Source of the DNA: Chitinophagaceae bacterium
Lineage (GTDB): Bacteria > Bacteroidota > Bacteroidia > Chitinophagales > Chitinophagaceae
DNA: 40,661 nucleotides
Direction of reading: 5' to 3'
Assembly: GCA_022841365.1 (NCBI GenBank)
Contig: JALHRP010000037.1
Location: 1 to 40,661, forward strand
This document shows, in pieces, positions 14,202 through 35,766 of the stretch. The notes below the pieces were generated by a model. It did not search any database. It worked only from the letters and a program-made list of their open reading frames with translations, and was not told the DNA's origin. Position 1 is the first letter of the stretch. Every line of letters starts with the position of its first letter. Both the position numbers and the translations under genes were made by a program.

Positions 14202-14229
14202 AAAAAACCCGCTTTAGAGCGGGTTTTTT
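14202..14229. terminator. Strong bidirectional terminator
   Basis: A perfect 12-bp stem (AAAAAACCCGCT / AGCGGGTTTTTT) with a TTAG loop ends in a T run on both strands. It separates the receptor gene (+) from the convergent esterase gene (-) and marks the left edge of the amidoligase cluster. Confidence 0.9.
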
Positions 14230-14272: not shown

Positions 14273-15085
14273 TTAATGCTTTTGCCCCCAACCCCATTTT
14301 AAAAATGACGGAAAGGCTTTTGCCCAAGTGGGCACATCATGCGAACCATCTTCGAGTTGCAGATATTTGATTGCCTGGTCTTTAAATCCTTTTGCTTTGA
14401 GTGCTGCAATTAAATCCATGGCATCATCAATTGAATCAATAATACCGTTATTGTTACGGTCTTTTTTCTCATCCAGGCTTCCGGTTTGGATAAAGAATTT
14501 TTGCCAAAGTGATGCAGAACCTGCCTTTACCTGATTGTGCATGATGCGGTCGGCTTCATCGGTATACCCATCTTCATACGCTTTCTGCCTCCACCATAAA
14601 GAGGGAGAAAACAATCCTGCTACACTGAATTCTTCCGGATGGTTCCAGACTATATCCATGGCCATTAAGCCTCCCAAAGAAAAACCGGCAAATGCTTTTT
14701 CTTTAAAATGAGGTATGTGATATTTCTTACGGATAAAAGGAAGTACTTCTTCAAAAATGAATGAGGTATAATCTGCCGCTTTAGCACCTCTGCCTAAGTA
14801 ATCAGTTTGAGCGGCTACACCATATTCCATTTTTCGTTGTGGTCCGCAATGTATGCCGGCACAAAGAATGGGTTCAACCTCTTCGTAATAATAAAGTTCA
14901 TTTAATATTTTCTGGAAAGGCATTTTGGGAAGATCCTGTCCGTCGTTAATCAGCAACAAGGTCATTTTCTCCGGATGTTTTACATGCGTAGGCAAATAAA
15001 CATCTACCTGTACATCCCGATCCAGTATTTCTGATCTCCACTTATTTTCTTCAAGAAGTATACTCTGCTGCTGTTCCGTATGCAT
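14273..15085 (-). CDS. Alpha/beta-hydrolase esterase (esterase D / enterochelin-esterase-like)
   Basis: A 270-residue hydrolase of the esterase D family (Pfam PF00756), which covers S-formylglutathione hydrolases, siderophore esterases and mycolyltransferases. No signal peptide is visible, so it should be cytoplasmic. The nucleophile elbow is GFSLGG with Ser136, and the catalytic histidine is His249 in DGSHDVPTW. The acid is probably Asp205 or a nearby residue in TGSLDEKKD. Residues 209-221 (DRNNNGIIDSIDD) resemble a calcium-binding EF-hand or dockerin loop inserted after that point. The gene diverges from the ATP-grasp and carboxylate-amine ligase pair across 142 bp. Its place in the cluster suggests that it hydrolyses an ester, thioester or amide product of those ligases; this is inference from context. 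Confidence 0.82.
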   Translation of the reverse strand: MHTEQQQSILLEENKWRSEILDRDVQVDVYLPTHVKHPEKMTLLLINDGQDLPKMPFQKILNELYYYEEVEPILCAGIHCGPQRKMEYGVAAQTDYLGRGAKAADYTSFIFEEVLPFIRKKYHIPHFKEKAFAGFSLGGLMAMDIVWNHPEEFSVAGLFSPSLWWRQKAYEDGYTDEADRIMHNQVKAGSASLWQKFFIQTGSLDEKKDRNNNGIIDSIDDAMDLIAALKAKGFKDQAIKYLQLEDGSHDVPTWAKAFPSFLKWGWGQKH

Positions 15086-15090
15086 ACGTT

Positions 15091-15098
15091 CAAAAATA
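15091..15098 (-). promoter_or_regulatory. Possible -7 element of the esterase gene
   Basis: TATTTTTG on the minus strand fits TAnnTTTG exactly but lies only 5 bp before the ATG. Use of this box would give an almost leaderless mRNA. No TTG is seen at the expected -33 distance, so the call is weak. Confidence 0.3.
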
Positions 15099-15227
15099 AG
15101 TAATAAGCTCTAAAATAATTTTTTAACCCTTCGATAATCTTACAAAATTGTGTGCTATATTGAAGGTATAATACTCGTTGCTCTACAAATCAGACTTCAT
15201 TTTTTAACTGACCAAAAAAATACAATT

Positions 15228-16181
15228 ATGAAAAAGATCGGCATCCTCCACGGTAAAGAGCGCTCATTCCCTACAGCATTTGTTGAGCGGATTAACAGGA
15301 AACAGATTGATGGAATTATGGCAGAGCCCGTTTTAATTGATAAGGTTGTACAGGGTGTTGGTAACGGATATGCAGTTATTGTAGATCGTATTTCGCAGGA
15401 TGTTCCGCATTACAGGGCGTATTTAAAAAATGAAGCCATCACCGGTACAGCAGTCATCAACAATCCGTTTTGGTGGAGTGCTGATGATAAGTTTTTTAAT
15501 AATTGTCTGGCTACAAAAATTGATGTACCGGTTCCTAAAACGGTAATCCTTCCTTCAAAAGAAAGACCAGATGATACCAGCAATGAATCGTTCAGCAACC
15601 TGGCATATCCAATGGATTGGGAAGGAATGTTTAACTATATCGGGTTCCCTGCATACATGAAACCATTTGCAGGTGGTGGCTGGAAGAATGTTTACAAACT
15701 AAACGATGCTGCAGATTTTTTTGAGAAGCATGCAGAAACCAATCAACTGGTGATGCTGTTGCAGGAAGAAATTGTGTTTGAAGAATATTACCGTTGTTAC
15801 TGCATTGGCCGCAAATATGTGCGCATCATGAGCTATGAACCACGCAATCCGCATCATTTACGTTATGTAGCCGATTTTCAACCTTCGGCTGAAAAATTAC
15901 AAATGATGACAGACATTGTATTACGCATCAATAATTATCTGGGGTACGATTTTAATACGGTAGAACTTGCTTTACGTAATGGCGTTCCGTATGCAATTGA
16001 TTTTTGCAATCCTGCACCGGATGCAGATCTTGCCAGTGTGGGGGAAGAAAATTTTGAATGGGTGGTTGAGGCTGCTGCAACATATGCCATAGAACGGGCA
16101 ATGGAACATAAAGAAGGTGCAGATAATTTAACCTGGGGCGAGTATGTTAAGCGTGGAGCAAACAAAGTTCCATTGTATTAA
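15228..16181 (+). CDS. RimK-type ATP-grasp amide ligase
   Basis: A 317-residue cytoplasmic protein with the ATP-grasp fold, which activates a carboxylate as an acyl-phosphate and joins it to an amine. Visible parts in the usual order are an N-terminal pre-ATP-grasp domain (about 1-85), the transition VINNPFWWSADDKFFNNCLA, the ATP-binding strand AYMKPFAGGGWKNV with Lys145 and its glycine loop, the hinge region LLQEEIVFEEYYRC, and the metal-binding strands NTVELALRNG (Glu246) and YAIDFCNPAPD (Asp258, Asn261). The start at ATG 15228 is preferred: the frame is open from GTG 15150, but the extra 26 residues are unlike the family and the ATG form begins MKKIGILHGKE. The next gene, a carboxylate-amine ligase, starts 26 bp later, so the two are probably one operon. 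Substrates are unknown. Confidence 0.85.
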   Translation: MKKIGILHGKERSFPTAFVERINRKQIDGIMAEPVLIDKVVQGVGNGYAVIVDRISQDVPHYRAYLKNEAITGTAVINNPFWWSADDKFFNNCLATKIDVPVPKTVILPSKERPDDTSNESFSNLAYPMDWEGMFNYIGFPAYMKPFAGGGWKNVYKLNDAADFFEKHAETNQLVMLLQEEIVFEEYYRCYCIGRKYVRIMSYEPRNPHHLRYVADFQPSAEKLQMMTDIVLRINNYLGYDFNTVELALRNGVPYAIDFCNPAPDADLASVGEENFEWVVEAAATYAIERAMEHKEGADNLTWGEYVKRGANKVPLY

Positions 16182-16207
16182 TCACATCATTCACTGAAAT
16201 TTTACAC

Positions 16208-17320
16208 ATGGGTATCATCAATTATAAACAGTTTACACTTGGAGTAGAAGAAGAGTACATGGTATTTGATCCTGCAACGAGAGAACTCAAAAGCCATGAA
16301 CAGCGGATTGTAACTGAAGGACAAAAAGTAATTAAGGATAAAGTAAAAGCAGAAATGCATCAGGCAGTAGTTGAAGTGGGCACCGATATTTGTATGGATA
16401 TTGGTGAAGCTTTTGCAGATGTTTCTTTGCTGCGCAAAACCATTAGTGGCATAGCCGGCGATATTGGATTAGCTGTTGGTGCAAGTGGTACACATCCGTT
16501 CAGTCACTGGCAGGATCAGTTGATTACAGATCATGTACGTTACAACCAGATTGTAAATGAACTGCAGGAAGCTGCAAGAAGTAATTTAATCTTCGGTCTT
16601 CATGTGCATGTAGGAATTGAAAACAGAAAGCTGGCCATTCACCTCGCCAATTCTGCCCGTTATTTTTTGCCGCATGTGTATGCACTCAGTACCAACTCTC
16701 CTTTCTGGGAAGCACGGATGACGGGATATAAATCTTTCCGTACAAAAGTGTTTGATAAATTTCCACGTACGGGTATCCCTGAATTTTTCGACAGTATTGA
16801 AGCATATGAAAATTATGTTGCACTGCTCATAAAAACCAATTGTATTGACAATGCAAAAAAGATCTGGTGGGATCTGCGTGTGCATCCGTTTTTTAACACC
16901 ATTGAATTTCGTATTTGTGATGTACCCATGACTGTGATGGAAACCATCGCTATTACTGCTTTGTTTCAGGCAATTACGGCCAAGCTGTATAAACTTAGAA
17001 ACAAGAACATGAATTACATCCAGTACCAGCGTGCATTGATTAATGAAAACAAATGGCGTGCAAGCCGTTATGGTATTGATGGATACCTGATAGATTTTGG
17101 TAAAGAAGAAGAAACCAATACACGGGCACTGATTTATGAATTACTCGATTTTGTAGATGACGTTGTAGATGAATTAGGTTGCAGGCATGCATTGAACTAT
17201 ATACCTGTGATGCTGGAGCAGGGAACCGGAGCAGACAGACAATTGAAAGTATATGAACAAACCAAGAGCATGGAGAGTGTGGTAGATTATATTGGCGGGC
17301 AGTTCCTGAGCGGCATTTAA
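16208..17320 (+). CDS. Carboxylate-amine ligase, YbdK/GCS2 type (COG2170)
   Basis: A 370-residue enzyme of the glutamine-synthetase-like superfamily, glutamate-cysteine ligase 2 branch (COG2170). Members use ATP to couple a carboxylate, often the gamma-carboxyl of glutamate, to an amine; E. coli YbdK has weak glutamate-cysteine ligase activity. Signature motifs are GVEEEYMVFD at 12-21, with the glutamates that bind metal and ATP, EVGTDI near 56-61, HVHVG at 132-136, SPFW at 164-167 and the metal-binding strand NTIEFRICD at 230-238. The length is normal. It follows the ATP-grasp gene after 26 bp and is closed by a hairpin terminator, so the two make a two-gene operon. The partner suggests a two-step ligation that yields a tripeptide-like or gamma-glutamyl product; neither substrate can be read from the sequence. 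Confidence 0.92.
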   Translation: MGIINYKQFTLGVEEEYMVFDPATRELKSHEQRIVTEGQKVIKDKVKAEMHQAVVEVGTDICMDIGEAFADVSLLRKTISGIAGDIGLAVGASGTHPFSHWQDQLITDHVRYNQIVNELQEAARSNLIFGLHVHVGIENRKLAIHLANSARYFLPHVYALSTNSPFWEARMTGYKSFRTKVFDKFPRTGIPEFFDSIEAYENYVALLIKTNCIDNAKKIWWDLRVHPFFNTIEFRICDVPMTVMETIAITALFQAITAKLYKLRNKNMNYIQYQRALINENKWRASRYGIDGYLIDFGKEEETNTRALIYELLDFVDDVVDELGCRHALNYIPVMLEQGTGADRQLKVYEQTKSMESVVDYIGGQFLSGI

Positions 17321-17346
17321 TTCATTCAGAACTATACAATAATTGC

Positions 17347-17375
17347 AACCGGCAACAAATTGTTGCCGGTTTTTT
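17347..17375 (+). terminator. Rho-independent terminator of the ligase operon
   Basis: AACCGGCAAC and GTTGCCGGTT form a 10-bp stem around a five-base AAATT loop, followed at once by a run of Ts. It lies 27 bp after the stop codon of the carboxylate-amine ligase gene. Confidence 0.85.
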
Positions 17376-17434
17376 GTTTCCCTTTTTCAAAAGTGGTTTG
17401 GCATATCACCTTACTGAAAAGGGTTAAAACACGA

Positions 17435-17464
17435 TTGTGTCACTTTTTAGCATGGCTATTTTTA
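17435..17464 (+). promoter_or_regulatory. Predicted promoter of the duplicated-domain lipoprotein gene
   Basis: TTG at 17435-17437, a 19-bp spacer and TATTTTTA at 17457-17464 (7 of 8 to TAnnTTTG) give the usual Bacteroidota spacing. The ATG lies 39 bp downstream. As a terminator sits just upstream, this gene needs its own promoter. Confidence 0.45.
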
Positions 17465-17503
17465 TGTGTTGATTTACTCTTTTAAAACATAAACTAACTG
17501 CAA

Positions 17504-18292
17504 ATGAAAATGTTTTTTCTGTTTCTTACAGCTTCAGGTCTCCTGTTATCCTGTACTAAAAAAAATCCTGTTGATGATTCAGGTGGCGGCAATAATAATC
17601 CGGGCACGCCTCCACCAACAGTAACCCTGCCCAACACGACCTTAATTGAATTAGTTGATCGTGGAGTTTCTGCTAAGGGAGGGTACCTGATACAGCCATT
17701 CACCGTTTACTTTCCGTTGAAATTTACATTCAGAGTAGCTGCTGAATACAGCGCCCAAGCCGCTATCATTCAAGAATCGCAGTTAAATAACTTTAAAACC
17801 ATGGCTGCATTTACTGGTTTTGGCGTGTTCAATAACCAGTTTGGAAGCGTTACCGTTACACTGCAACCCGGGGAATATTATGTTGCAATCAGAAATACAG
17901 CTAACGGAGCTAATTTGTGGAGCCTTGAACTGGATTATGAAACATCTTTGCCTGCCAGCGATCGGGCCGTACTGAATGATTATATGATTTCAGAAGCGGT
18001 AAAAATCCCTTCGTTTACGAAATATGCAAAGCAATTTACCATTCAGTCGGGCTACAGATATTTTTTGGATGGAGTTAGTTTACATTGTCCGTTTAAAATT
18101 GTTACACCGGATCAGTATGCCAAATTTCTGAACAATGAAGGGTATCTCTATTTTACAGATTACTATACAATTGGAGGAAGTACTCCGGGTTTCTGGGAAT
18201 TGAAACTACCACCGGGCACCTATTATTTTGTTGCAACGGTATCAAGAGAAGCAACACTCACTTATATTCTGGAACGTTGGAAAGTAAATTAA
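17504..18292 (+). CDS. Lipoprotein with two tandem beta-sandwich-like repeats
   Basis: A 262-residue predicted lipoprotein that I do not recognise as a named family. The signal peptide ends in the lipobox LLLSC with Cys17 as the lipidated residue, followed by a disordered Gly/Asn/Pro linker (residues 25-42). The remainder consists of two related halves, about 45-148 and 158-260. Each ends in a strand-turn-strand motif that can be aligned: TLQPGEYYVAIRN then WSLELDYE in the first half, KLPPGTYYFVATV then TYILERW in the second. The pattern recalls pre-peptidase C-terminal (PPC-like) beta-sandwiches, but this is a resemblance only. It lies between the two halves of the amidoligase cluster, with its own predicted promoter and a shared terminator. 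Whether it works with the ligases is open. Confidence 0.75.
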   Translation: MKMFFLFLTASGLLLSCTKKNPVDDSGGGNNNPGTPPPTVTLPNTTLIELVDRGVSAKGGYLIQPFTVYFPLKFTFRVAAEYSAQAAIIQESQLNNFKTMAAFTGFGVFNNQFGSVTVTLQPGEYYVAIRNTANGANLWSLELDYETSLPASDRAVLNDYMISEAVKIPSFTKYAKQFTIQSGYRYFLDGVSLHCPFKIVTPDQYAKFLNNEGYLYFTDYYTIGGSTPGFWELKLPPGTYYFVATVSREATLTYILERWKVN

Positions 18293-18302
18293 CCTTCAAC
18301 AT

Positions 18303-18335
18303 AAAAAAACAGCAACCGGTGTTGCTGTTTTTTTT
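18303..18335. terminator. Bidirectional terminator between convergent genes
   Basis: AAAAAAACAGCAAC and GTTGCTGTTTTTTT form a perfect 14-bp stem with a CGGT loop and T runs on both strands. It serves the lipoprotein gene on the plus strand and the ATP-grasp gene that ends at 18347 on the minus strand. Confidence 0.9.
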
Positions 18336-18346
18336 CATCTATAATT

Positions 18347-19540
18347 TTATTGTTCAAAATAAGCAACGGTACCTCCCACCCACTCTTTATCTTTATTGTA
18401 CCTCACACCAATCATTTTTCCTTTACTCATCCGTGCAAGATTTATTGCAGCATGTGGTCTTGCATCACCCTCGGGCCACACATACATCATCCTGATTTCT
18501 ACTTTTGCAGGGACATCAGGTGTTTCAATAATTTCTGCATAATTCACTTTGCGCTGAAGAATAAAATTCTCCGGATCATTAATTGCATCAAGATCATCCT
18601 GTGTAACATCAATTTTAACTCCCTGTCCTGCAAAAGAAAACAAAGGTTTCAACACATAATTCTCTAACCCATCGGGCAGCTCTTTCACTTCATTCAGGAA
18701 AAAAGTTTGTGGTACATATGGATGATTAATAAAAGGCAATGTGTATTTGCTGATGCGGTAAAACCAATTGGGATGCGGCAGCCATTCTACATCCAGATCC
18801 TGTGTAATATCTATTACATCTCCCAAGCTGGCTTTATTAGCTTTAAGATCATCAAAAATGATCCGGTTGTAAATACGTTTGATTAACGTCTTTACACCAT
18901 CTTTCAAGTAATACAGTTTTCGTCCTTCCTGCATGAGTTTGGTTAAACAAACCACTTCAATTCCCGTGTAATCTTTTGTACAGGAAAAATCAATTCTGGT
19001 TTTTTGTTCTTCGGGTTTAATTTCAAGCAGGATTACATGCTCAACAGGAAGATCACCAACAATTAACTCTCTTAACATTTTTACGTAACTCTCTTTGGTA
19101 TAACCGTTGAGGTATTGACTGTAATTGGATGGTACAGGAAAATGTTTTTCAACAACTTCGGGATAATAAACCTGAAAGCCATACAATGTAGGAAAGCCCT
19201 GCATCTCTATCAATTGCGGTTCAAGTTCGCCACGATCATTTCGGCAAATACCAAAATCAAATGAGATCATGTGTGAAATGGATGCTTCATTGGGTACTTT
19301 TTCACCGGGAGGAATTGCTTTCTCTGTTAATGTAATAAAGTTGGGATCACAGATCACATCAATAATACTTTCACATGCATCCATCAGCTTATCAGCAAAT
19401 TCTTTATCAACAAATACAGGTGTTTCGCATACCCTGAATTCAATATCGCCTGGATGAAGACTGTTGAGATCGTTTAAAAAAGCCTCGTACTTAGCCGCTG
19501 AAAAATGTGCATTAAATGTTTTACGTAAGTCCGGTACCAT
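18347..19540 (-). CDS. Predicted circularly permuted ATP-grasp ligase
   Basis: A 397-residue soluble protein, probably a circularly permuted ATP-grasp enzyme. The metal-binding strand normally found near the C-terminus appears early: FDFGICRNDRG then PQLIEMQGFPTLYG (residues 94-121, Glu112 with Gln114 where an ExN motif is usual). The nucleotide-binding strands come last: NYVLKPLFSFAGQGV (294-308, Lys298 as the ATP lysine), NFILQRKV (325-332), and INLARMSKGKMIGVRYNKD with EWVGGTVA at the end (366-393). This order resembles glutathionylspermidine synthase and the permuted type 2 ATP-grasp proteins. No signal peptide or membrane segment is seen. The gene lies 50 bp downstream of a glutamine amidotransferase gene and is probably co-transcribed with it; the pair suggests ligation of an amine or ammonia to a carboxylate. 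Family placement is moderate; substrates are unknown. Confidence 0.65.
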   Translation of the reverse strand: MVPDLRKTFNAHFSAAKYEAFLNDLNSLHPGDIEFRVCETPVFVDKEFADKLMDACESIIDVICDPNFITLTEKAIPPGEKVPNEASISHMISFDFGICRNDRGELEPQLIEMQGFPTLYGFQVYYPEVVEKHFPVPSNYSQYLNGYTKESYVKMLRELIVGDLPVEHVILLEIKPEEQKTRIDFSCTKDYTGIEVVCLTKLMQEGRKLYYLKDGVKTLIKRIYNRIIFDDLKANKASLGDVIDITQDLDVEWLPHPNWFYRISKYTLPFINHPYVPQTFFLNEVKELPDGLENYVLKPLFSFAGQGVKIDVTQDDLDAINDPENFILQRKVNYAEIIETPDVPAKVEIRMMYVWPEGDARPHAAINLARMSKGKMIGVRYNKDKEWVGGTVAYFEQ

Positions 19541-19590
19541 AGAAGATCGTTTGTCTTCTAAAAATATTTGATTTTAACCAGAAAACTAAA

Positions 19591-20436
19591 TTAAACTGTA
19601 ACAGGTGTTATGGAGAAAACAGCCCTGTAAAGAAAATTAGGGAGTATGTGAGAATAGGTGTACAAAATTTTATCCGGGTCTTCCAGATGTTCAATCATAC
19701 TCTTCCATTTTTCGAACCCGTGATTATCAATCACCGTTTTCTTTTTCTCTTCTGTTTGCAGATACATGCTCATACCAATGGCATCTGCTTCAGGATGAAA
19801 TTGTGTGCCAATCATGAACTCATTAAAACGTACAGCCATAATTGCCCGTTCAAGCGCTACATGGGGTCGGTCTTTTTCAATGCAAAGCAATTTTGCTCCG
19901 ATAGCTTTTAAATGCTGATGATCGGGTTGAATAACCTGATAATCTCTGCTGTCTACAGCATAGAACGGATCTTTTAGTCCATCAAACACCAGTTCATCAT
20001 CAGCCCCATTCATAAGATGCACAGGAAACACACCAAATGCAGTTGATTTACGTACACATACCTCGCCGATATTAAAATAACGGCAGGCAAGCTGAAAAGA
20101 ATGACAGATAAAAAACACATGCTTTTTATCTTCCTTCAGCGGATTATCATTCCATTTTTTAATTTCTGAGATCCAGGAGAAAAAACGATTTTCCCATTCT
20201 GTTCCCTTGCTTTCCAAAGGACTGCCGGGGCCACCTGAAGAAATATATACATCGTAAGAAAGATCCGGCAGTTGCTGTTTGCTGCGCACATCAAATTCAT
20301 CCCACACCACATTTATCTGATGCCCTTCTGCAAACTGATGAAGTATGTCTCTTATACAACGCATGCCCTGATTAGGAAACCCATCGTACAGATCAAGAAC
20401 CGCTACCCGAACATGTTTTGCATTGGTACCACTCAT
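19591..20436 (-). CDS. Class I glutamine amidotransferase-like protein
   Basis: A 281-residue protein with the class I glutamine amidotransferase fold, which normally hydrolyses a gamma-glutamyl amide through a Cys-His-Glu triad. All three residues can be placed: Cys111 in FFICHSFQLA, His214 and Glu216 in GTQFHPEAD. The oxyanion glycines are in SSGGPGSP at 66-73. The nucleophile elbow reads ICHSFQ rather than the common GxCxGxQ, so the glycine before the cysteine is missing, though the glutamine after it is kept. A C-terminal extension of about 65 residues follows the triad. It precedes the permuted ATP-grasp gene on the same strand. It may feed ammonia to that ligase or act as a gamma-glutamyl hydrolase on the cluster's product; the sequence does not decide between the two. 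Confidence 0.85.
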   Translation of the reverse strand: MSGTNAKHVRVAVLDLYDGFPNQGMRCIRDILHQFAEGHQINVVWDEFDVRSKQQLPDLSYDVYISSGGPGSPLESKGTEWENRFFSWISEIKKWNDNPLKEDKKHVFFICHSFQLACRYFNIGEVCVRKSTAFGVFPVHLMNGADDELVFDGLKDPFYAVDSRDYQVIQPDHQHLKAIGAKLLCIEKDRPHVALERAIMAVRFNEFMIGTQFHPEADAIGMSMYLQTEEKKKTVIDNHGFEKWKSMIEHLEDPDKILYTYSHILPNFLYRAVFSITPVTV

Positions 20437-20500: not shown

Positions 20501-20526
20501 AAAAGCCCCCCGGATAACCGGAGGGC
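20501..20526 (-). terminator. Terminator of the 20551 lipoprotein gene
   Basis: On the minus strand GCCCTCCGG pairs with CCGGGGGGC (one U-G wobble) around a TTAT loop, followed by TTTTGTTT. It lies 25 bp after the lipoprotein stop codon and marks the right edge of the amidoligase cluster. Confidence 0.8.
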
Positions 20527-20550: not shown

Positions 20551-21531
20551 TTAAAGACTGTTTAAATAACTGATGATGCCGCTTAAACTGCTCAGTTCGG
20601 GTTTGATGAAGGCTACTGTAGCAGCAGATGTTTTCTCTTCTTTGATGCCTAAATAATAACTGCCTCCAACTTTTGATATTGCAACAAATGTAACTTCCTG
20701 ATTAACGGGTATGTTGGGAAAGGCAAAGCTTCTTGTTGCTGCATTACCGGATAATTGTACAACAGTACGGTTATTTTTAAATACCATGTATACTGCCGTA
20801 TTTGCGTTGGAGAATAAATTTGGGACTACTGCTTTCACTTCAACCCTTGGTTGTACTGTTTCAAGTGATTTACCAGCGCTTACCCATCCTGATTGAAAAG
20901 TTTCAATGATATAACCCTTTGCCAAAGGATTGATGTTTGTTGAATCCCACAATTTAACAACTGCATTATCTGCAGCCAGCGACCAGTTAAACAATAAAGA
21001 ATTTGTAACAGTTACAGGGCTTCCATAAAAAACACTCATACCGGGTTTAGGCTCTGTATCACGGTAACGGATACTGATTTTTTTATTACCCGCAACTGTT
21101 ACAGGCTGACCGTTAGATGTGAGTTTTATATGAAGTGCACCTCCAGATTCAAGTGGATACCTGCTTGCACTTGTAGTAACGCCGTAACGTATAAAGTCTC
21201 CTTTCTTTTGTAACAACACGTATTCAATTTTCAACCCGCCTGTTAATGCAACACCATTTAAAAGAAGACCATTTAAAGGAAACATGAACTGAATGGCGTT
21301 GGCGGCATTAACCAATGTATCGGTCACCACGCTGTTCACATCATGTACATTAAAACTTCCTTCCAGTTGCTTTGATAAAATAAGCACCTGCGATGAGGCG
21401 GTAACATTATTTGTCCATGCACTGTCCAGTTGCTGCCCGTCATCAGGTACAAATTCATTTGTATCTTTTTTGCAGGAAGCAAAAAGTAAAATAATGAGAC
21501 AAACATTAGTTGCTATAAAAAACTTCTTCAT
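20551..21531 (-). CDS. Lipoprotein of unknown function
   Basis: A 326-residue predicted lipoprotein. The signal peptide ends LLFASC with Cys20 as the lipidated residue, followed by KKDTNEFVPDDG, a short charged tether of the sort seen on exported Bacteroidota lipoproteins. The rest looks like an all-beta protein with no membrane segment, and I recognise no named domain. The last 90 residues (NTAVYMVFKNNRTVVQLSG, then FPNIPVNQEVTFVAISKVGG) have the look of a small beta-sandwich. It lies 72 bp downstream of the sigma-linked barrel gene on the same strand and ends in a clear terminator, so it may be the last gene of that operon or a target of that sigma factor. No function is proposed. Confidence 0.7.
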   Translation of the reverse strand: MKKFFIATNVCLIILLFASCKKDTNEFVPDDGQQLDSAWTNNVTASSQVLILSKQLEGSFNVHDVNSVVTDTLVNAANAIQFMFPLNGLLLNGVALTGGLKIEYVLLQKKGDFIRYGVTTSASRYPLESGGALHIKLTSNGQPVTVAGNKKISIRYRDTEPKPGMSVFYGSPVTVTNSLLFNWSLAADNAVVKLWDSTNINPLAKGYIIETFQSGWVSAGKSLETVQPRVEVKAVVPNLFSNANTAVYMVFKNNRTVVQLSGNAATRSFAFPNIPVNQEVTFVAISKVGGSYYLGIKEEKTSAATVAFIKPELSSLSGIISYLNSL

Positions 21532-21603
21532 AATCTGGATTTAAACAGGTGTTTTTCATGGTCAGCAATTGCCGGAAACATCCATATACATTTGATGCTT
21601 CAC

Positions 21604-23082
21604 TTATCTGTATCGCTGCCTTTCACTAAATAAATTATAACGTATCCCCAGCTGCATACCTGTTGTTGTATATCTCTGATTCACAAAATTTCCATTTTGT
21701 GTAACCGGTTTAAAGTTGTAACGGAAATAAGGCTCTGCAAAAATCTGCATACGATCATTGAGCCGTTTGTAAACAGCAAAACTGGTAAAGATGCCAATGC
21801 CGATATTACTGCGCCAGTGATTGGGGCCGTTCCCTTTTGCTGTTGAAATTTTTACCGGACTGAAGGTTGTGTCTAATACTTCACCCCGATAGAAAGATGT
21901 GATGTTAAATACAGGACCTGCATTGATTGAAAAAGCCAGAATTTCAGGATCACCAAATTCATACGAAAGAATAACCGGTAAATCAATAAACCGGTAACGG
22001 TTATACGTGGTTCGGTAACGTGTACCTGTTTGTTCAAAATAAGTGGTATCCCGGATAAATAAGGTATCTCCCGGTGCTCTGATAACGGTACGAATGGTTA
22101 TGATCTGTGTTGTTTGCTTTTCATTTTCATTGACTATACGTAACCGCTCATTAATCTGTGAGTAGTTTATACCTGCTTTGAGCACAAACTGTTCTCCGAT
22201 ATTTTTTGCAATTCTTACTCCCGCACTGAATCCGTTTCGATTGTCTTCACTTTCCCTGCGTTGAGAAATATAATTATTAAAGCTGTTTGGGTTAGAAAAG
22301 CTGCGCATGGTATAGTCAGGTGAACCATACACTTCCAGATACAGATCATTTCTTCTTGGGCCATTTACACTTGGGCATGCAGGGCCAACTGTTCTCTGCG
22401 GTACATTTCCCAATGTGAATGTTGAGAGCGAATAACGGTAAGCAGCCGGAGCAGTAAAGCGCAGCAGCATTTCTTTTTCTACTGTTGATATTGTTTCAGG
22501 CTTTGTATTGCCGACAACAGTGTTCATCTGCTGTTTTTGAGTTGAGTTTTTTTGATTGCTTTGATTTGTATTTGTTACTACTGCTCTGCTATTACTTTTT
22601 TTATCGTTTACCTGATGATGGTCTGCTTCTTTATTTGCCGGAACTGCAGTTCCATTTTTTATTCCCTGTGGGTTTGTTGTATTTTCTTTAACTGCATTTC
22701 CTGTTGTGTTGTTTGTACCTTCCTTCTGCTCAGTTGAATTTGTATTTGTTGTTGATTCTTCCGGATTGATTGCTGTTTGTTCGTTGTTTTGTAAAGCAGG
22801 TGTTTCAGTTTGTTTGCTTTCCGTTTCCTGCTCTTGTTTTGCACTGGAAACAACGGGCTTATCTGCAGACTCATGTTTCACCACTGAATCCCATGTTAGA
22901 TAAAGCATTCCTGTGAGTCCTAAAAGAACAACAGCAGTTAACCAGTATTTCCGGAAAAAGAAAAATCCTTTGCGGTCGTCTTTTTCTTTTTCACGAATAC
23001 GCTCCCATACCTGCATGGGGGCACCTGAGTCGTGCTGACCCAGTTTACCTTTTACGAATTCGTCAAATAATTTATCCGTCAT
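21604..23082 (-). CDS. Membrane-anchored protein with C-terminal outer-membrane beta-barrel, probable sigma partner
   Basis: A 492-residue protein in four parts: a charged N-terminal segment with no signal peptide (1-44, starting TDKLFDEFVKGKL), one hydrophobic segment (about 47-64, YWLTAVVLLGLTGMLYL), a long polar linker rich in Asn, Gln, Thr, Lys and Glu (about 70-200), and a PorT-like outer-membrane beta-barrel (about 235-492, with FSAGVRIAKNIG, RFIDLPVILSYEFG and MQLGIRYNLFSER). It would span from the cytoplasm to the outer membrane. The start codon overlaps the stop of the ECF sigma gene by 4 bp (ATGA), which implies translational coupling. By position, and by its short cytoplasmic head before a single membrane helix, it may act as an anti-sigma factor, but no known anti-sigma motif is recognised. 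Confidence 0.75.
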   Translation of the reverse strand: MTDKLFDEFVKGKLGQHDSGAPMQVWERIREKEKDDRKGFFFFRKYWLTAVVLLGLTGMLYLTWDSVVKHESADKPVVSSAKQEQETESKQTETPALQNNEQTAINPEESTTNTNSTEQKEGTNNTTGNAVKENTTNPQGIKNGTAVPANKEADHHQVNDKKSNSRAVVTNTNQSNQKNSTQKQQMNTVVGNTKPETISTVEKEMLLRFTAPAAYRYSLSTFTLGNVPQRTVGPACPSVNGPRRNDLYLEVYGSPDYTMRSFSNPNSFNNYISQRRESEDNRNGFSAGVRIAKNIGEQFVLKAGINYSQINERLRIVNENEKQTTQIITIRTVIRAPGDTLFIRDTTYFEQTGTRYRTTYNRYRFIDLPVILSYEFGDPEILAFSINAGPVFNITSFYRGEVLDTTFSPVKISTAKGNGPNHWRSNIGIGIFTSFAVYKRLNDRMQIFAEPYFRYNFKPVTQNGNFVNQRYTTTGMQLGIRYNLFSERQRYR

Positions 23083-23618
23083 ACTGCAATGCTTTTTTGC
23101 ATTTTAAGAATTTCATTTTGCAAATACCTTCTTGCTTTAACCAGTTGTGATCTGGAAGTACTGTCTTTAATGTTCAACATCACCGCTATTTCTTCATGAC
23201 TGTAGCCCTCAATTACATGCAGGTTAAACACAAGCTTGTACCCTTCCGGCAAATTATGAATCAACTTCATAATTTCTGTTTCATTAAGATGGGTGTAGGC
23301 CGATGGTTCTAAACCGCCTGCCTGCGTTGAATCGGGTTGTACCTCATCAAACTTCATTTTCTTTTTCTGGCAATATTTCAGGGCTGTATTTACTACAATC
23401 CTTCTTACCCACCCTTCAAAAGATCCTTCGAACTTAAACTGTGAAATATTTCTGTACACCTTTATAAAAGCATCCTGCAGAATATCTTCTGCCTCCATCC
23501 GGTCAGTGGCATATCGAAGGCAAACAGTAAGCATCTTACCGGCGAAACGCTCAAAAAGCTGTCGCTGGCATTGCTCATCATTTTTGATGCAGCCCTGAAT
23601 TAATTGGTGATCGGTCAA
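23079..23618 (-). CDS. ECF-type RNA polymerase sigma factor
   Basis: A 179-residue sigma-70 family factor with only regions 2 and 4. Region 2 holds LRYATDRMEAEDILQDAFIK (about 35-54) and the promoter-melting stretch SFEGWVRRIVVNTAL. Region 4 shows LPEGYKLVFNLHVIEGYSHE then EIAVMLNIKDSTSRSQLVKA (about 124-164), the helix-turn-helix that reads the -35 region. The linker between them is about 25 residues. The start is TTG at 23618: no ATG exists upstream in frame before a stop, and the first internal ATG would remove part of region 2. The gene is coupled by a 4-bp overlap to the membrane-barrel gene, the standard arrangement of an ECF sigma factor with its controlling membrane partner. Its targets cannot be named. 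Confidence 0.93.
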   Translation of the reverse strand: MTDHQLIQGCIKNDEQCQRQLFERFAGKMLTVCLRYATDRMEAEDILQDAFIKVYRNISQFKFEGSFEGWVRRIVVNTALKYCQKKKMKFDEVQPDSTQAGGLEPSAYTHLNETEIMKLIHNLPEGYKLVFNLHVIEGYSHEEIAVMLNIKDSTSRSQLVKARRYLQNEILKMQKSIAV

Positions 23619-24901: not shown

Positions 24902-26851
24902 TTATTTAAGAATGATTGCGCCCAACGGAGGTAAATGGAGGTTCAACTCATACCATTTGTCGGTTTCATTCACTAAAGTTCCCTCCAAAATGCTGTTAAA
25001 CACATCGCCTGTTCCCCAATATTTTTCATGGTTACTATTAAAAATTTCTTTCCACTCTTTTTTGTTCTGCAGATGCAGTTTCCAGTCTTTGCGTACCACC
25101 GGCGTCATGTTCAAGATTACAATCAGATCATCTTCCGGTTTTTTTCCTTTGCGTTTAAAAACAATCACCGACTCACTTCTGTGGTTGAGATCAACCCACT
25201 CAAACCCGAATTGATTAAACTGATTTTCATACAATGCCGGTTCGGTTTTGAGGAGATGACAAAGATCTTTTACACACTCTTTTACTCCTTTATGCGAAGG
25301 AAATTGTAACAGCTCCCACTGGAGTTCACTCTTGTGATTCCACTCACTGGTAGCCCCAAACTCGTTTCCCATAAAGAGTAGTTTACCGCCCGGATGCGCA
25401 AACATATAGCTGTACATGAGGCGCAGGTTGGCAAATTTCTGCCACTCATCTCCGGGCATTTTATACAGCATAGGACTTTTCCCGTGCACCACTTCATCAT
25501 GACTTAATGGTAACATAAAATTCTCATCATAATAGTACATCATACTGAAAGTGAATTGATCCTGTTGATGTTGGCGATACAGCGGATCCTGCTTAAAGTA
25601 CTTCAATGTGTCGTGCATCCAGCCCATCATCCATTTCATTCCAAAACCCAGCCCATCAGAAAAAGTGGGTTTACTTACACCCGGCCAGTCGGTGGCTTCT
25701 TCGGCAATGGTTTGTGTATCGGGTAAATCCCTAAAGATGGTTTCATTGAGATCTTTGATAAAAGCAATGGCTTCTAAATTACCATCACCACCAAATTCAT
25801 TGGGCTCCCATTGGCCGGCCGTTCTTGAATAGTTCAATTTGAGCATAGAGGAAACGGCATCAACACGTAATCCATCAACATGGTATTTTTTGAGCCAGTA
25901 CATGGCACTGCTGATTAAGAAAGATTTTACTTCTCCCCTTTTGTAATTAAAAATATAACTGTTCCAATCGGGGTGATATCCTTTGCGCATATCAGCATAT
26001 TCATAAGTATGACTGCCATCGAACATAAACAATCCATGTGCATCATACGGAAAATGCGAAGGCACCCAATCGAGAATTACCCCAATACCTGCCTGGTGAA
26101 ATGCATCAATCAGTTGCATGCATTGCTGCGGCGTTCCGTATCGTGATGTGGAAGCAAAATAACCTGCCCCCTGATACCCCCAACTGCCATCATACGGATG
26201 TTCCATTATGGGCATTAACTCAACATGTGTAAAACCCATTTCTTTTACATAAGGCACTAAGTTCTCCCGAAAAAAATCATAACTGTGATAGGTCTCTTCA
26301 TTGTATTTATCCGGCCTCATCCAACTCGCAAGATGCACTTCATAAACACTCCATGGCGCATCTAATTTATTATGCTCTTTTCGGTTTTGCATCCATTGTT
26401 CATCGGCCCATTCATGTTCCAGTTGCCAGGTAACCGATGCGGTGTTTGGTCTTACTTCCCAAAAATTGGCATAGGGATCTCCTTTATCGAGTTTTACACC
26501 ACCATAACCATGAATATGAAATTTGTATGTTTCTCCTTTTTTAACATGCGGGATAAAGCCTTCCCAAATACCCGACTTATCTAACCGGACATAAAGCGGA
26601 TGACTTTCTTTATTCCAGTTATTAAAACTGCCAAACACAGAAACATAAGTTGCATTTGGAGCCCATACTGCAAAATAATAGCCTGTCGTTTCATTTACTT
26701 CCATTAAATGAGCACCAAACAACTCGTAACATCTATAGTTAGTTCCGTTTTGAAAATTGGCAATATCATCTCCTTCAAAACGGGAATAATTCCATACAGG
26801 TTTTGATGTATCAATAAAATGATAGTCTTCGTATTTTTTAGGAGCTTCCAC
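24902..26851 (-). CDS. glgB: 1,4-alpha-glucan branching enzyme
   Basis: A 649-residue cytoplasmic GH13 enzyme that makes the alpha-1,6 branches of glycogen. An N-terminal carbohydrate-binding module 48 (about 55-140, AVWAPNATYVSVFGSFNNWN) precedes the catalytic barrel. The catalytic residues are Asp331 in DGLRVDAVSSML, Glu384 in IAEEATDWPG and Asp452 in LSHDEVVHGK. A C-terminal all-beta domain ends LPPLGAIILK. The predicted start is GTG at 26851; upstream in this frame there is no ATG before a stop. It resembles the eukaryotic-like shorter branching enzymes more than the 730-residue E. coli form, as it lacks an extra N-terminal module. It lies about 7.6 kb from glgC and glgA on the same strand, so it is not in their operon. 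Confidence 0.95.
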   Translation of the reverse strand: MEAPKKYEDYHFIDTSKPVWNYSRFEGDDIANFQNGTNYRCYELFGAHLMEVNETTGYYFAVWAPNATYVSVFGSFNNWNKESHPLYVRLDKSGIWEGFIPHVKKGETYKFHIHGYGGVKLDKGDPYANFWEVRPNTASVTWQLEHEWADEQWMQNRKEHNKLDAPWSVYEVHLASWMRPDKYNEETYHSYDFFRENLVPYVKEMGFTHVELMPIMEHPYDGSWGYQGAGYFASTSRYGTPQQCMQLIDAFHQAGIGVILDWVPSHFPYDAHGLFMFDGSHTYEYADMRKGYHPDWNSYIFNYKRGEVKSFLISSAMYWLKKYHVDGLRVDAVSSMLKLNYSRTAGQWEPNEFGGDGNLEAIAFIKDLNETIFRDLPDTQTIAEEATDWPGVSKPTFSDGLGFGMKWMMGWMHDTLKYFKQDPLYRQHQQDQFTFSMMYYYDENFMLPLSHDEVVHGKSPMLYKMPGDEWQKFANLRLMYSYMFAHPGGKLLFMGNEFGATSEWNHKSELQWELLQFPSHKGVKECVKDLCHLLKTEPALYENQFNQFGFEWVDLNHRSESVIVFKRKGKKPEDDLIVILNMTPVVRKDWKLHLQNKKEWKEIFNSNHEKYWGTGDVFNSILEGTLVNETDKWYELNLHLPPLGAIILK

Positions 26852-27028
26852 TTTACAAGGTTTTACTGATCGGTTAAAGTTTGTAAACAGTTTGCAGTAA
26901 TGTGATTAAACATTTATAAAAAAACTACTGCCGTTCATATGGAAATATAACACTTTAACATCTTTTGCACACATTCTGCCGCAAAAAGATTTTATCATCG
27001 TGTACCAATTTTATCATCACCAAAAGCT

Positions 27029-29797
27029 ATGATGTCACCAAAACTCATTCTGCTCTTTTGCACAGGCATATTCTGTTCTTTGCAATCCATCAGCCAATCC
27101 AACCAAATCAAAGGATCCATTACAGACACCAGTTCAGGGAAAAAACTAAGTCAGGCAGTTGTATCGCTTCTTCGTACTAAAGATTCAACCCTTGCAAAAT
27201 TTACACGTACAAATGAACAGGGCAATTATGAACTGAAGAATATTCCCAATGGCAGCTATCTGTTTATCATCAGCTATCCCGGCTATGCTGCGTTTGCTGA
27301 TGAAGTGGAACTGAATGGAAACACAACGCTTACAAAAGAAGTAACGATTATACCACGCAGTAAACTGCTGGAGGAAATTATTATCCAACAAAAAGTAAGT
27401 GCTATCCGCATTAAAGGTGATACTACAGAATATAAGGCAGACAGTTTTAAAGTAGGGCCTAATGCCAATGTGCAGGAACTGCTGAAACGCTTACCCGGCC
27501 TGCAGGTAAATGCCAAAGGAGAAATTACAGCACAGGGACAAAAGGTAGAAAAGATACTGGTTGATGGTGAAGAATTTTTTAGTGATGACCCTGCTGTTGT
27601 CTCTCAAAATCTGCGTGCAGATGTGGTAGATAAAGTACAGGTGTTTGATAAAAAAAGTGAGCAGGCCGAGTTTACCGGTGTTGATGACGGACAGAAAACA
27701 AAGACCATTAATCTTGAACTGAAGGATGATAAGAAGAAAGGTTACTTTGGAAAACTGGAAGCAGGATCAGACTTTGATCGCTACAGAAGTGCAAAAGCAA
27801 TGATTAATCTTTTTAAAAAGAAACAAAAGATTGCCGCATACATTACCAACAACAACACCACGTTTGAAGGACTGAACTGGAACGAGCAACGGAACTTTGG
27901 CAGTAACAGTAATAACAACATGGAAGTATCAGATGATGGAGGTATGATGTTCTGGAACGAAGGTGACGATTTCAGCAGAGGACAGGGTTTGCCGCAATCA
28001 ACCACAGCCGGTTTGTTATACATTAATAAATGGAATAAAGATAAAAACAGCATCAATGGCAGTTATCAGTTCAACGATCAGATGATCAACGGCAGAAACA
28101 CCAGTTTTACGCAAACCATTTTGCCCGACAGCAGCTTCTCCAACAACACCATTGAAAACTTCACCAGCTCCCGCCGCAGAAATAAACTGAACGCAACATA
28201 TGAGTGGCAGATTGATTCTACCAGCAGCCTGAAAATAAAAGCAAGCGGCTCCATTGTGAATGCACAAAGAGAAAATAAATATCTTGGCGAGTCGGTAAGT
28301 GAAGACAAGATTGTGATCAATAAAATTGACCGCACAACCATCAGCCGTACAGAAGATAAAGATTTTACTTCCGAAATCAACTGGCGAAAGCGGCTTAGTA
28401 AAAATGGAAGAACCATCAGCTATACCGGTAACTGGAGCAATAATGCAAAAACAGGAAATGGATTTCTGCTTTCAAACACAGATTTCTTTGATGTAAACGG
28501 ACAGCCCGACCGGCAGCAACTCCTTGATCAGAATAAAACCAATAATGAACGCCAGCAGGTTATTCAGAACAGCCTGATTTATACAGAACCGTTAACCAAA
28601 AAATTATTTTTAGAGTTAACCTACCGAAATGCGTTTAACCGGAACAATGCTGAACGAAACACGTTTGAGAAACCAATTTCAGGCGATAAATACAGCTCTA
28701 TTGTAGATACGTTGAGCAATCATTTTCTGTATAAGGCAGATGACCACAACGGCGGTTTCTCTTTCCGTTATACCGAAAAGAAATACCTTATTTCTCTTGG
28801 CGCAGCAGTAGGAAGAACAAATTTTGAGCTGGAAGAATTAACAAAAAACGATACACGCAGAATAGGTTTCACCAATCTGTTACCAAGAGCAAGTATTCGC
28901 TTTACACCAAAAAAACAAAAGAGCTTTACACTTTCTTATAACGGAACAACACAGAACCCCACCCTGCAGCAAATCAATCCGATTATTGATAACATTGATC
29001 CGTTAAACATTACCATCGGCAATCCTTTGCTGAAACAGGCTTTCAGACACAGCTTTTCTGTTAACATGAATGATTATAAAATCATCAAGAGCAGAAACTT
29101 TTATCTCTCGGGCAGTTTTGCATTTACAAATAATGCCATCAGCAGTTCAAATAAAATTGATTCGGGCATCCGCATTAATCAGGCCATTAACGTAAACGGA
29201 AATTACAACGGTCAGCTATGGACCATGTATGGTTTTGAAGTGGCCCCATCCGTTAATTTAAATTTTAATGCAGAAGCATCTGTGAGCCGTTTTGTAAACA
29301 TGGTGAACGGAGAAAAAAATATCAGTGATAATTACCGGATCGGATTAGGAACAGGTATTGGCAAATGGAGTGATAAATGGATCAGTTTTAATTTAAACGT
29401 AGAACCTGCTTTCAATTTTTCAAAATCATCCATCAACAAAAGCCTTGCAACCAACTATTGGACTGTAAATGCATATCCATATTTATCAATGAAATTCAAG
29501 AAACAGAAGCTGTATGTTGATTTAAATGGTAACCTGAATTTTTATCAGAAAACAAGTGTATTCCAGAATCAGCGGAATGTTATGATCATTAACAGCTCCA
29601 TCAAACGCACTTTTACAAAATCAGATGCTTTTGAACTGATGCTTTCCGTAAATGATCTGTTCAATCAGAACCAGGGTATTCAGCGGAATATCAGCAGCAA
29701 CTTTATAGCAGAAAACACGTTTCAGAACATACGCCGTTATGTATTGCTTACGCTTAGCTGGAACTTTACAAAAAACGGTAAACCTTCAAATTTTTAA
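27029..29797 (+). CDS. Outer-membrane receptor-like beta-barrel protein (OMP_b-brl_3 family)
   Basis: A 922-residue outer-membrane protein. The parts are a signal peptide (about 1-22), a carboxypeptidase-regulatory-like domain (about 26-112, KGSITDTSSGKKLSQAVVSL), a plug-like domain (about 140-235, NVQELLKRLPGLQV and KILVDGEEFFSDDP) and a beta-barrel of the family found in Bacteroidota TonB-receptor relatives (Pfam OMP_b-brl_3, PF14905), ending LTLSWNFTKNGKPSNF. Two ATG codons (27029 and 27032) are possible starts. A GLPGLI-family gene begins 2 bp after its stop codon, which makes co-translation almost certain. It diverges from glgB across 177 bp, where I find no clear -7 element. The ligand is unknown; a role as importer or exporter is equally possible. 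Confidence 0.88.
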   Translation: MMSPKLILLFCTGIFCSLQSISQSNQIKGSITDTSSGKKLSQAVVSLLRTKDSTLAKFTRTNEQGNYELKNIPNGSYLFIISYPGYAAFADEVELNGNTTLTKEVTIIPRSKLLEEIIIQQKVSAIRIKGDTTEYKADSFKVGPNANVQELLKRLPGLQVNAKGEITAQGQKVEKILVDGEEFFSDDPAVVSQNLRADVVDKVQVFDKKSEQAEFTGVDDGQKTKTINLELKDDKKKGYFGKLEAGSDFDRYRSAKAMINLFKKKQKIAAYITNNNTTFEGLNWNEQRNFGSNSNNNMEVSDDGGMMFWNEGDDFSRGQGLPQSTTAGLLYINKWNKDKNSINGSYQFNDQMINGRNTSFTQTILPDSSFSNNTIENFTSSRRRNKLNATYEWQIDSTSSLKIKASGSIVNAQRENKYLGESVSEDKIVINKIDRTTISRTEDKDFTSEINWRKRLSKNGRTISYTGNWSNNAKTGNGFLLSNTDFFDVNGQPDRQQLLDQNKTNNERQQVIQNSLIYTEPLTKKLFLELTYRNAFNRNNAERNTFEKPISGDKYSSIVDTLSNHFLYKADDHNGGFSFRYTEKKYLISLGAAVGRTNFELEELTKNDTRRIGFTNLLPRASIRFTPKKQKSFTLSYNGTTQNPTLQQINPIIDNIDPLNITIGNPLLKQAFRHSFSVNMNDYKIIKSRNFYLSGSFAFTNNAISSSNKIDSGIRINQAINVNGNYNGQLWTMYGFEVAPSVNLNFNAEASVSRFVNMVNGEKNISDNYRIGLGTGIGKWSDKWISFNLNVEPAFNFSKSSINKSLATNYWTVNAYPYLSMKFKKQKLYVDLNGNLNFYQKTSVFQNQRNVMIINSSIKRTFTKSDAFELMLSVNDLFNQNQGIQRNISSNFIAENTFQNIRRYVLLTLSWNFTKNGKPSNF

Positions 29798-29799
29798 AC

Positions 29800-30543
29800 A
29801 TGAAGCATCTCTTTTTTATACCTCTTCTACTCTGTTTTTTTTCAACCGCATCTGCGCAGGTAAAATTTATCAGCAGCGGACGTATAGAATTTGAAAAAAG
29901 AGTGAACCAGTTTTCTTTTTACGATAAAGAAGATGATGAAGCCCCGTGGGTTATTGAAATGAAGAAAACATTTCCGAAGATGGTGAACGAAGTTTACTAT
30001 CTCGACTTTAATGAGCAAAAGAGTGTGTATAAACTTGGAAAAGAAAACACCGATGTAAAATATATGTGGGGCCGCAAACCCAGTGAAACGGATGTTACTG
30101 TACAGGATGTTCAGAATAACCAGATACTTGTACAGCGGGATATTTTTGAACAAACCTATCTGGTAAAAGACAGTCTTAGAAATTACGAATGGAAGATCAG
30201 CAATGAAACAAGAACCATTGCAGGTTTTGAATGCCGTAAAGCAGTTACAAAAATCTGCGACTCTGTTTATATTGTTGCGTTTTATACCGATGAGATTACG
30301 GTGAGCAGCGGCCCCGAAAGCTTTGGCGGCTTACCCGGTATGATCCTTGGATTGGCTGTACCCCGTTTGCAAATTACCTGGTTTGCTACAAAAGTTGAAC
30401 TGAAAGAACCATCAGAAACAATGCTGAATCCAAAACAGAAAGGAAAAACAGTAACCTGGCAGGCATATGAAAAAGATTTGAACAAAGCCATGAAAGACTG
30501 GGGCAAGTACGGAGCCAAAGTAATGTGGACGAGTTTGCTGTAA
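29800..30543 (+). CDS. GLPGLI family protein
   Basis: A 247-residue exported protein of the GLPGLI family, named after a short motif that appears here as GGLPGMI at residues 176-182. The signal peptide is residues 1-19 (ending TASA, cut before Q20). Family members occur in Bacteroidota, often next to a receptor-like outer-membrane barrel, and have no established function. Conserved features present are YYLDF near 66-70, ETRTIAGFECRKA near 136-148 and VAFYTDEI near 159-166. Two cysteines (145 and 153) lie close together and could form a disulfide. The gene starts 2 bp after the barrel gene, so the two form a tight pair and probably act in one complex. Confidence 0.9.
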   Translation: MKHLFFIPLLLCFFSTASAQVKFISSGRIEFEKRVNQFSFYDKEDDEAPWVIEMKKTFPKMVNEVYYLDFNEQKSVYKLGKENTDVKYMWGRKPSETDVTVQDVQNNQILVQRDIFEQTYLVKDSLRNYEWKISNETRTIAGFECRKAVTKICDSVYIVAFYTDEITVSSGPESFGGLPGMILGLAVPRLQITWFATKVELKEPSETMLNPKQKGKTVTWQAYEKDLNKAMKDWGKYGAKVMWTSLL

Positions 30544-30582
30544 ATGAACATCTGGTTTAATTCTTAACGAGATGTCATGTTT

Positions 30583-31023: not shown

Positions 31024-31115
31024 CACATTTAGATTTGTTTGAAATCAATGAAATACTTTTTTTAAGTTAACTTTTGAAATCAAAATAAAATCAAACTACA
31101 TGCTAAACAACTATT

Positions 31116-32969: not shown

Positions 32970-32971
32970 TG

Positions 32972-34363: not shown

Positions 34364-34411
34364 AACAATCGTGCCCCATCCCTGAATGGAGGCGTTTAAT
34401 AAATGATGTAT

Positions 34412-34442
34412 AAAAAAGCAGCACCCCTCAGGGACGGGAGCT
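34412..34442 (-). terminator. Possible partial terminator between glgC and the transporter gene
   Basis: On the minus strand AGCTCCC and GGGGTGCT pair (one mismatch) around an 8-base loop, followed by GCTTTTTT. The hairpin starts at the glgC stop codon. It may only reduce read-through, since the strand and order otherwise suggest one operon. Confidence 0.4.
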
Positions 34443-35728: not shown

Positions 35729-35766
35729 AAGTTTAATTTATTCGTTAACAGAGTATGATTCTAAAA

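Follow-up and report, generated by a model that had tools for sequence, protein, structure and literature searches.

A widely conserved set of three predicted amide-forming ligases and a probable hydrolase in Bacteroidota, present in rearranged form in a Chitinophagaceae contig

The association of three unlike ATP-dependent ligases with an amidotransferase-like hydrolase is a widely conserved functional unit of Bacteroidota, and it occurs in a rearranged form in the Chitinophagaceae contig JALHRP010000037.1. The whole stretch of 40,661 nt is called the window here, and coordinates refer to it. The four enzymes are a RimK-like ATP-grasp (R), a YbdK/COG2170 ligase (C), a class I amidotransferase-like protein (A) and a permuted ATP-grasp (P), and their genes are accompanied in the window by those of an esterase (EST) and a lipoprotein (LIPO). 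Because three unlike ATP-dependent ligases stand in a fixed order with a triad hydrolase, and because peptidases join the set or replace one of its members, the system is suggestive of stepwise amide synthesis followed by later trimming. It is quite possible, and we tentatively propose, that this conserved pathway builds a small gamma-glutamyl peptide or peptide-amine without the ribosome or a non-ribosomal peptide synthetase.

Each enzyme served as a query (E ≤ 1e-10) against 247 genomes drawn evenly from the phylum and covering 43 families (below, genomes, loci and families are designated by G, L and f numbers). Matches to R were found in 86 genomes, to C in 79, to P in 73 and to A in 59, counts that take in a few weak matches, maybe paralogues (30-40% identity for R in G007, G087 and G160; 31-39% for C in six genomes of f14, f37 and f43). 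In 25 of the 247 genomes, belonging to seven families, the other three genes are no more than 10 kb away from R, and 24 of these 25 loci are co-directional and ordered R>C>A>P, the exception being the window. The other sets near R are R-C-P (13 genomes of five families), R-A (13 genomes), R-A-P (three) and R-C (ten). Pairwise linkage within 10 kb concerns 27 to 48 genomes, against the 0.5 to 0.8 expected from random placement in a 2-Mb genome. An earlier note on this DNA had left its prediction to a search for co-occurrence and conserved order within 10 kb; the neighbourhood search in the 247 genomes did not refute it, since the families travel together and their order is conserved.

The distribution of the genes among genomes goes in the same direction. 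The 95 genomes with any match divide into RCAP (41), RCP (24), RA (8), C (6), RCA (5), RAP (4), R (3), CP (2), RP (1) and CAP (1). R and P are both present in 70 of the 247 genomes, R only in 16, P only in three and neither in 158; the corresponding figures across the 43 families are 20, 8, 0 and 15 (Fisher p=3e-6). At the family level significance is retained by R-P, C-P, R-A and R-C but not by C-A (p=0.35) or A-P (p=0.13). Relatedness is left in at this level too, and the genome-level Fisher tests, extreme as they are, do not take it into account. Even between close relatives the set comes and goes: six of the 26 genomes of f5 hold four genes, one holds three and 19 none, and the 14 genomes of its genus g15 divide into two, one and 11. 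R, C, A and P tend to be present or absent as a block in many Bacteroidota.

The source genome is a near relative of Lacibacter: R is matched best by a Chitinophagaceae metagenome-assembled genome (100%), then by Lacibacter cauensis and L. luteus (93%). Open reading frame (ORF) calls recovered the six genes of the earlier note with their positions and strands, and the region is organized as follows:

14202..14229, +: left flanking terminator, found by pattern scan and folding
14273..15085, -: EST, PF00756 alpha/beta-hydrolase esterase, with Ser136 in GFSLGG and His249; divergent from the ligase genes
15228..16181, +: R (GRASP1), ATP-grasp ligase of RimK/LysX/Ddl fold, with an invariant D258-F259-x-N261 motif and invariant R189
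16208..17320, +: C (GCS2), YbdK/COG2170 carboxylate-amine ligase, 26 bp after R
17347..17371, +: intrinsic terminator ending the R-C unit, found by terminator pattern scan and folding
17504..18292, +: LIPO, lipoprotein on a lineage-specific insertion (~17311-18347), outside the conserved set
~18303..18334, both strands fold: terminator-like hairpin between LIPO and P, found by folding and absent from the pattern-scan list
18347..19540, -: P (GRASP2), permuted ATP-grasp of glutathione synthetase / glutathionylspermidine synthetase / YgiC fold, with D95, E112 and Q114 preceding K298
19591..20436, -: A (GAT), class I amidotransferase-like hydrolase, with C111-H214-E216 and elbow FICHSFQ; 50 bp before P on the same strand
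20501..20526, -: right flanking terminator, reading from the 20551-21531 (-) gene, found by folding and absent from the pattern-scan list

The earlier note had described six genes bounded by two strong terminators. Both outer terminators fold well, but the stretch is not one unit: the strands run - + + + - -, and internal terminators, among them the strong one at 17347-17371, split the six genes here. The lipoprotein, counted as a member of the cluster in the earlier note, has to be withdrawn from it. Its gene, flanked by two hairpins, lies on an insertion of about 1 kb (17311-18347) that is missing in L002, the closest relative, where about 90 bp with a palindrome take its place in a neighbourhood of 90-92% DNA identity. 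We exclude LIPO from the system because it is borne by this insertion, tblastn (E ≤ 1e-5) matched it in none of 80 Chitinophagaceae loci, and its own genome holds no second copy.

These 80 loci are the best of 393 encoding an R relative, and 45 of them have full 10-kb flanks. The divergent EST-R-C arrangement is found in 78 (clustering at other thresholds gave EST in 78 and C in 76), and R and C are together in 79. A and P are each present in 20 of the 80 loci (15 of the 45 with full flanks), always on the same strand with A first, and adjacent in 18. In 13 loci (L008, L011, L014, L015, L018, L020, L034, L036, L038, L056, L057, L068 and L079) C is followed by genes for a sigma factor, an outer-membrane protein and a lipoprotein, relatives of the genes at 20551-23618 of the window in the same order, with no match to A or P there.

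The four families named in the earlier note were recovered, C and A by domain models (GCS2/PRK13515.1 and PF00117) and the folds of R and P by way of predicted structures. For C the assignment is direct, with GCS2 (PF04107) at E=6.7e-58, the NCBIfam model PRK13515.1 carboxylate-amine ligase at 510.6 bits, above its cut-off of 371, and a profile match to YbdK (1r8g, E=1.8e-65). The enzyme keeps the EEE, HxH, DxR and ExR motifs of YbdK/COG2170 and differs by its location in a multi-ligase unit. It also matches, distantly, the plant-type glutamate-cysteine ligases 6gmo and 2gwc (E=1.8e-4), and the window's genome holds a single match to it. The physiological substrate of YbdK itself is unsettled.

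The R protein is more remote from known enzymes. Its start is placed at the ATG at 15228 rather than at the GTG at 15150, as the alignment of homologues favours the former. In the window it stays under the cut-offs of the families it touches, R2K_2 in Pfam (E=0.05, 13.9 bits against 26.2) and TIGR00768 rimK_fam in NCBIfam (E=1.9e-6, 27.5 bits against 143.4). Its predicted model, with a predicted local distance difference test (pLDDT) score of 87.9, matches Ddl, LysX/ArgX, RimK and PsnB, and the residues K145, R189, E246, D258 and N261 are invariant in the 40 aligned members. R shares with the RimK, LysX and D-Ala-D-Ala ligase (Ddl) ATP-grasps and with the R2K clade its fold and, in invariant form, Lys145 and Arg189; besides its low scores, it departs from them by a D-x-x-N motif that, aligned by eye, puts the Asn one step downstream of its place in the usual E-x-N. 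PMC4431377 describes such a one-step shift in R2K.3 (ExGD), as previously unseen in the superfamily, and two conserved lysines in the RAGNYA domain of the R2K clade. Residue K153 of R, placed by eye as the second of these, is Lys in 29 and Arg in 11 of the 40 members, ten of which give a weak R2K_2 signal.

The relationships of P emerge from its fold. The window protein scores below the gathering threshold of PF03738 (GSP_synth; E=0.17, 11.5 bits against 29.3), a family reached at E ≤ 0.01 by four of 43 P members, and its sole sequence-profile match is YgiC (E=0.012). Its predicted model (pLDDT 92.9) has 26 PDB matches at E ≤ 0.001, with 10-17% identity, all of which are (homo)glutathione synthetases, glutathione-synthetase-like effectors, GspS-type proteins, YgiC/YjfC or the fungal ligase Cp1B; they include human and yeast glutathione synthetase and 3n6x, a putative glutathionylspermidine synthase (E=1.9e-14). 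The residues D95, E112, Q114 and K298 are invariant in all 43 aligned members. We take the first three, by analogy with GspS, to be the likely metal residues; they precede the ATP lysine K298, as is to be expected of permuted ATP-grasps such as the glutathione synthetase, GspS and YgiC/YjfC enzymes. P differs from these by its low identity, its few contacts with PF03738 and an invariant Gln where GspS presumably has Asn. YgiC and YjfC are termed peptidylpolyamine synthetases in PMC12568646, which cites Pederick et al. 2023, and YgiC lacks the activity of Gsp according to PMC12506659.

The full Cys-His-Glu triad announced for the amidotransferase stands. Window A matches GATase PF00117 (E=3.8e-09), and the match to this family together with the triad C111, H214 and E216 was found in 39 of 39 aligned relatives, five of which also touch the homoserine O-succinyltransferase family. 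With class I amidotransferase-type hydrolases (PuuD-like enzymes) A shares a GGPGSP strand and the triad; it differs by its elbow FICHSFQ, in which Ser113 occupies the Gly position of the usual motif, and by having no fused synthetase domain. In one genome each of f19 and f30 (L149 and L150; Pfam run on the L149 copy), both devoid of A, an M29 aminopeptidase takes its slot. The earlier note had A supply ammonia or trim a glutamyl group; ammonia supply has become less likely because this peptidase holds the slot of A in two families and because no ammonia-accepting synthetase was recognised among those neighbours, a part of the total, that carry a label; P or R could in principle accept ammonia.

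The esterase of the window belongs to the conserved set. Esterase counts cover the 80 Chitinophagaceae loci and 20 loci chosen to represent families, as distinct from the 247-genome draw. EST itself matches PF00756 (E=2.4e-24), and L157, from another family, holds a relative with 45% identity in the corresponding divergent position. A PF00756-type esterase lies at most 0.7 kb from the core in 16 of the 20 loci, in a tblastn survey (E ≤ 1e-4) whose eight query esterases came, all but one, from the same loci; it gave none in L146, L149, L159 and L164, the last being at a contig end. Pfam returned PF00756 each time for five neighbour esterases from four loci. Two types can be distinguished, a divergent one related to EST and a co-directional one that precedes R by 14-94 bp in 11 of the 20 loci; serine 118 and histidine 219 do not vary among 13 aligned copies of the latter. 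The EST2-type esterase found beside R in many families has, elsewhere in the window's genome, a relative of just 33% identity, with no match to R, C, A or P in the 15 kb around it.

Other enzymes accompany the set in particular lineages. Neighbour ORFs were called at 90 amino acids or more, a length that a short precursor peptide would escape, and most neighbours were clustered by BLAST without annotation. Two f4 genomes (L155 and L184) carry a run of eight genes, esterase, M17 aminopeptidase, ATP-grasp_4 protein, esterase, R, C, A and P; the M17 peptidase and a third ATP-grasp are found beside the set in L155, L156 and L184. In f24, an S10 carboxypeptidase-like protein comes after C in L165, L167 and L171, and an amidohydrolase precedes P in L166, L170 and L172 (Pfam run on one copy in each case). 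By eye, a histidine ammonia-lyase lookalike stands beside R in conserved synteny in the first three of these f24 loci, and a short-chain-dehydrogenase-like protein recurs in L158, L166 and L172. In three families, a few kb separate the cluster from a gene for an asparaginase / isoaspartyl peptidase of the N-terminal nucleophile (Ntn) type (L145:12389-13375, L155:14566-15465 and L158:15191-16186; PF01112 was run on the L145 copy, with which the other two clustered). In the window, a gamma-glutamyltranspeptidase (PF01019, E=1.5e-143) at 14-1441 (+), about 13 kb from the cluster, is possibly relevant to gamma-glutamyl compounds, and the genes at 24902-37182 look like an ordinary glycogen/maltodextrin group (branching enzyme, alpha-amylase, sugar transporter, ADP-glucose pyrophosphorylase and glycogen synthase).

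In the pathway that we propose, C would couple an amine or amino acid to the gamma-carboxylate of glutamate or of a comparable acid, as its likeness to YbdK suggests. R would then add a second residue, and P the last amino acid or a polyamine, on the model of GspS and YgiC. A would most likely be a hydrolase trimming or removing a gamma-glutamyl or other amide, a role for which the M29 aminopeptidase would stand in in some lineages, and the PF00756 esterases may handle an ester or thioester form of the substrate or product. The best hint of a glutamyl bond comes from C, and P offers the best one of a terminal amino acid or polyamine. The earlier note's gamma-glutamyl or peptide-like product is still the best inference for the cluster.

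Several observations weigh against this proposal. The genes are separable, as shown by the 24 positive genomes with R, C and P and no A, the eight with only R and A and the five with only R, C and A. Four f2 genomes carry the set without C. R, C and P are all unlinked in f22, f27 and f28, and P is never near R or C in f24. G154, the three-gene genome of f5, has C, A and P and no R near C though the contig continues. In five of the seven fetched loci of R-A type, a CP_ATPgrasp_2-like protein lies between R and A (Pfam run on the L145 copy, the others being 54-64% identical to it); in L146 and L153 frames on other strands confused the ORF caller and obscure the content of this gap. That this protein might be P under another name is unsupported (hhalign probability 1.7%). 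The gamma-glutamyl step would itself rest on the family resemblance of C to YbdK. The conservation of R, finally, is inflated in the figures that follow, the Chitinophagaceae loci having been chosen by high R identity: the median identity to the window is 79.7% for R (80 loci), 79.2% for C (70) and 77.9% for RibBA (31), and 65% for A (20), 62% for P (19) and 57% for EST (75). Over the 31 loci holding R, C and RibBA, mean identities are 82.0%, 81.2% and 79.2%. Since C, which was not selected for, scores as high as R, both appear, in these loci, roughly to match the riboflavin enzyme RibBA in conservation and, judged by their sequences, look like core metabolism.

The nature of the last residue was approached through polyamine genes. 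The DS family (deoxyhypusine or homospermidine synthase type) is present in 69 of 73 genomes with P, vs 127 of 174 without, and in four of the 13 genomes having R and A but no P. nspC, found in ten of the 247 genomes at E ≤ 1e-40, occurs in three of the four P-positive genomes without DS, so that either gene is present in 72 of 73 P-positive vs 133 of 174 P-negative genomes. Within f5, the DS family is found in all seven P-positive genomes and in 17 of the 19 P-negative ones. Taxonomy confounds this association, suggestive as it is, which weighs against the proposal; the intended controls were saturated, PF00494, meant as a variable unrelated gene, being present in 241 genomes and BshC in 242. 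A polyamine end of the product is only hinted at. We consider it rather improbable that the product is, more specifically, a gamma-glutamyl peptide bearing a homospermidine or spermidine cap, which about three in ten Bacteroidota species would have as a second conserved small peptide beside bacillithiol. For such a bacterial counterpart of glutathionylspermidine, C, R and P would carry out the synthesis and A or a peptidase the recycling, and the compound would pertain to primary metabolism rather than to niche natural products.

Other functions can be conceived for the same enzymes. RimK tags ribosomal protein S6. The ligases of the set might likewise tag a protein, A and the peptidases stripping the tag, an option that the RimK fold of R and the weak R2K_2 signal of ten of its 40 members would favour, as would the protein modification proposed by Burroughs et al. 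for R2K ATP-grasps in PMC4431377. We hold it to be unlikely: C and P resemble small-molecule families, the candidate for the second R2K lysine, placed by eye, is not strictly kept, and no gene for a target protein stood out among the recurrent neighbours, which are BLAST-clustered and partly annotated.

A catabolic role has a precedent in the PuuA-PuuD route of Escherichia coli, where putrescine is glutamylated and the product then hydrolysed. C and P would glutamylate an amine or amino acid, and A would hydrolyse the product; the union of ligases with a class I amidotransferase-type hydrolase, the nearby peptidases and amidohydrolase and the association with triamine genes are in line with this. 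No amine oxidase or aminotransferase was recognised among the partly annotated recurrent neighbours, though the short-chain-dehydrogenase-like protein recurs, and three ATP-consuming ligases seem excessive to dispose of a single amine, which makes such a role improbable in our eyes.

The distant kinship of C to plant-type glutamate-cysteine ligase and the glutathione synthetase fold of P evoke a low-molecular-weight thiol, with C making gamma-Glu-Cys and P completing it. This appears equally doubtful, R and A being superfluous to such a route and C being nearer to YbdK than to GshA. A substitute thiol is unlikely because the bacillithiol enzyme BshC is present in 242 of the 247 genomes, that of the window included, and no thiol is obviously missing. 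Least probable of all is the chance meeting in the window of two independent pathways, R-C with EST and A-P, for although the two pairs that the earlier note kept separate are indeed often apart in Chitinophagaceae, with R and C together in 79 of 80 loci and A and P within reach in just 20, all four genes form one co-directional run in 24 genomes of seven families, and R-C-P runs exist in 13 genomes of five. A role in anti-phage defence found no echo either, none of the six window proteins matching a PADLOC model at E ≤ 0.001.

The stepwise synthesis that we favour belongs to a known kind. Iyer et al. reportedly predicted in 2009 amidoligase networks in which several unlike ligases and peptidases share one neighbourhood, and the R-C-A-P set resembles these networks in that very respect. 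PMC4431377 restates the idea of such neighbourhoods. For this particular combination and its product, we found no description in the literature searched, most subscription journals being outside our reach.

If the proposed pathway is real, a widespread phylum would carry an undescribed small-molecule pathway, with P in 73 and R in 86 of 247 genomes. With the gene order fixed, and with carriers and non-carriers inside a single family, metabolomes can be compared straight away.

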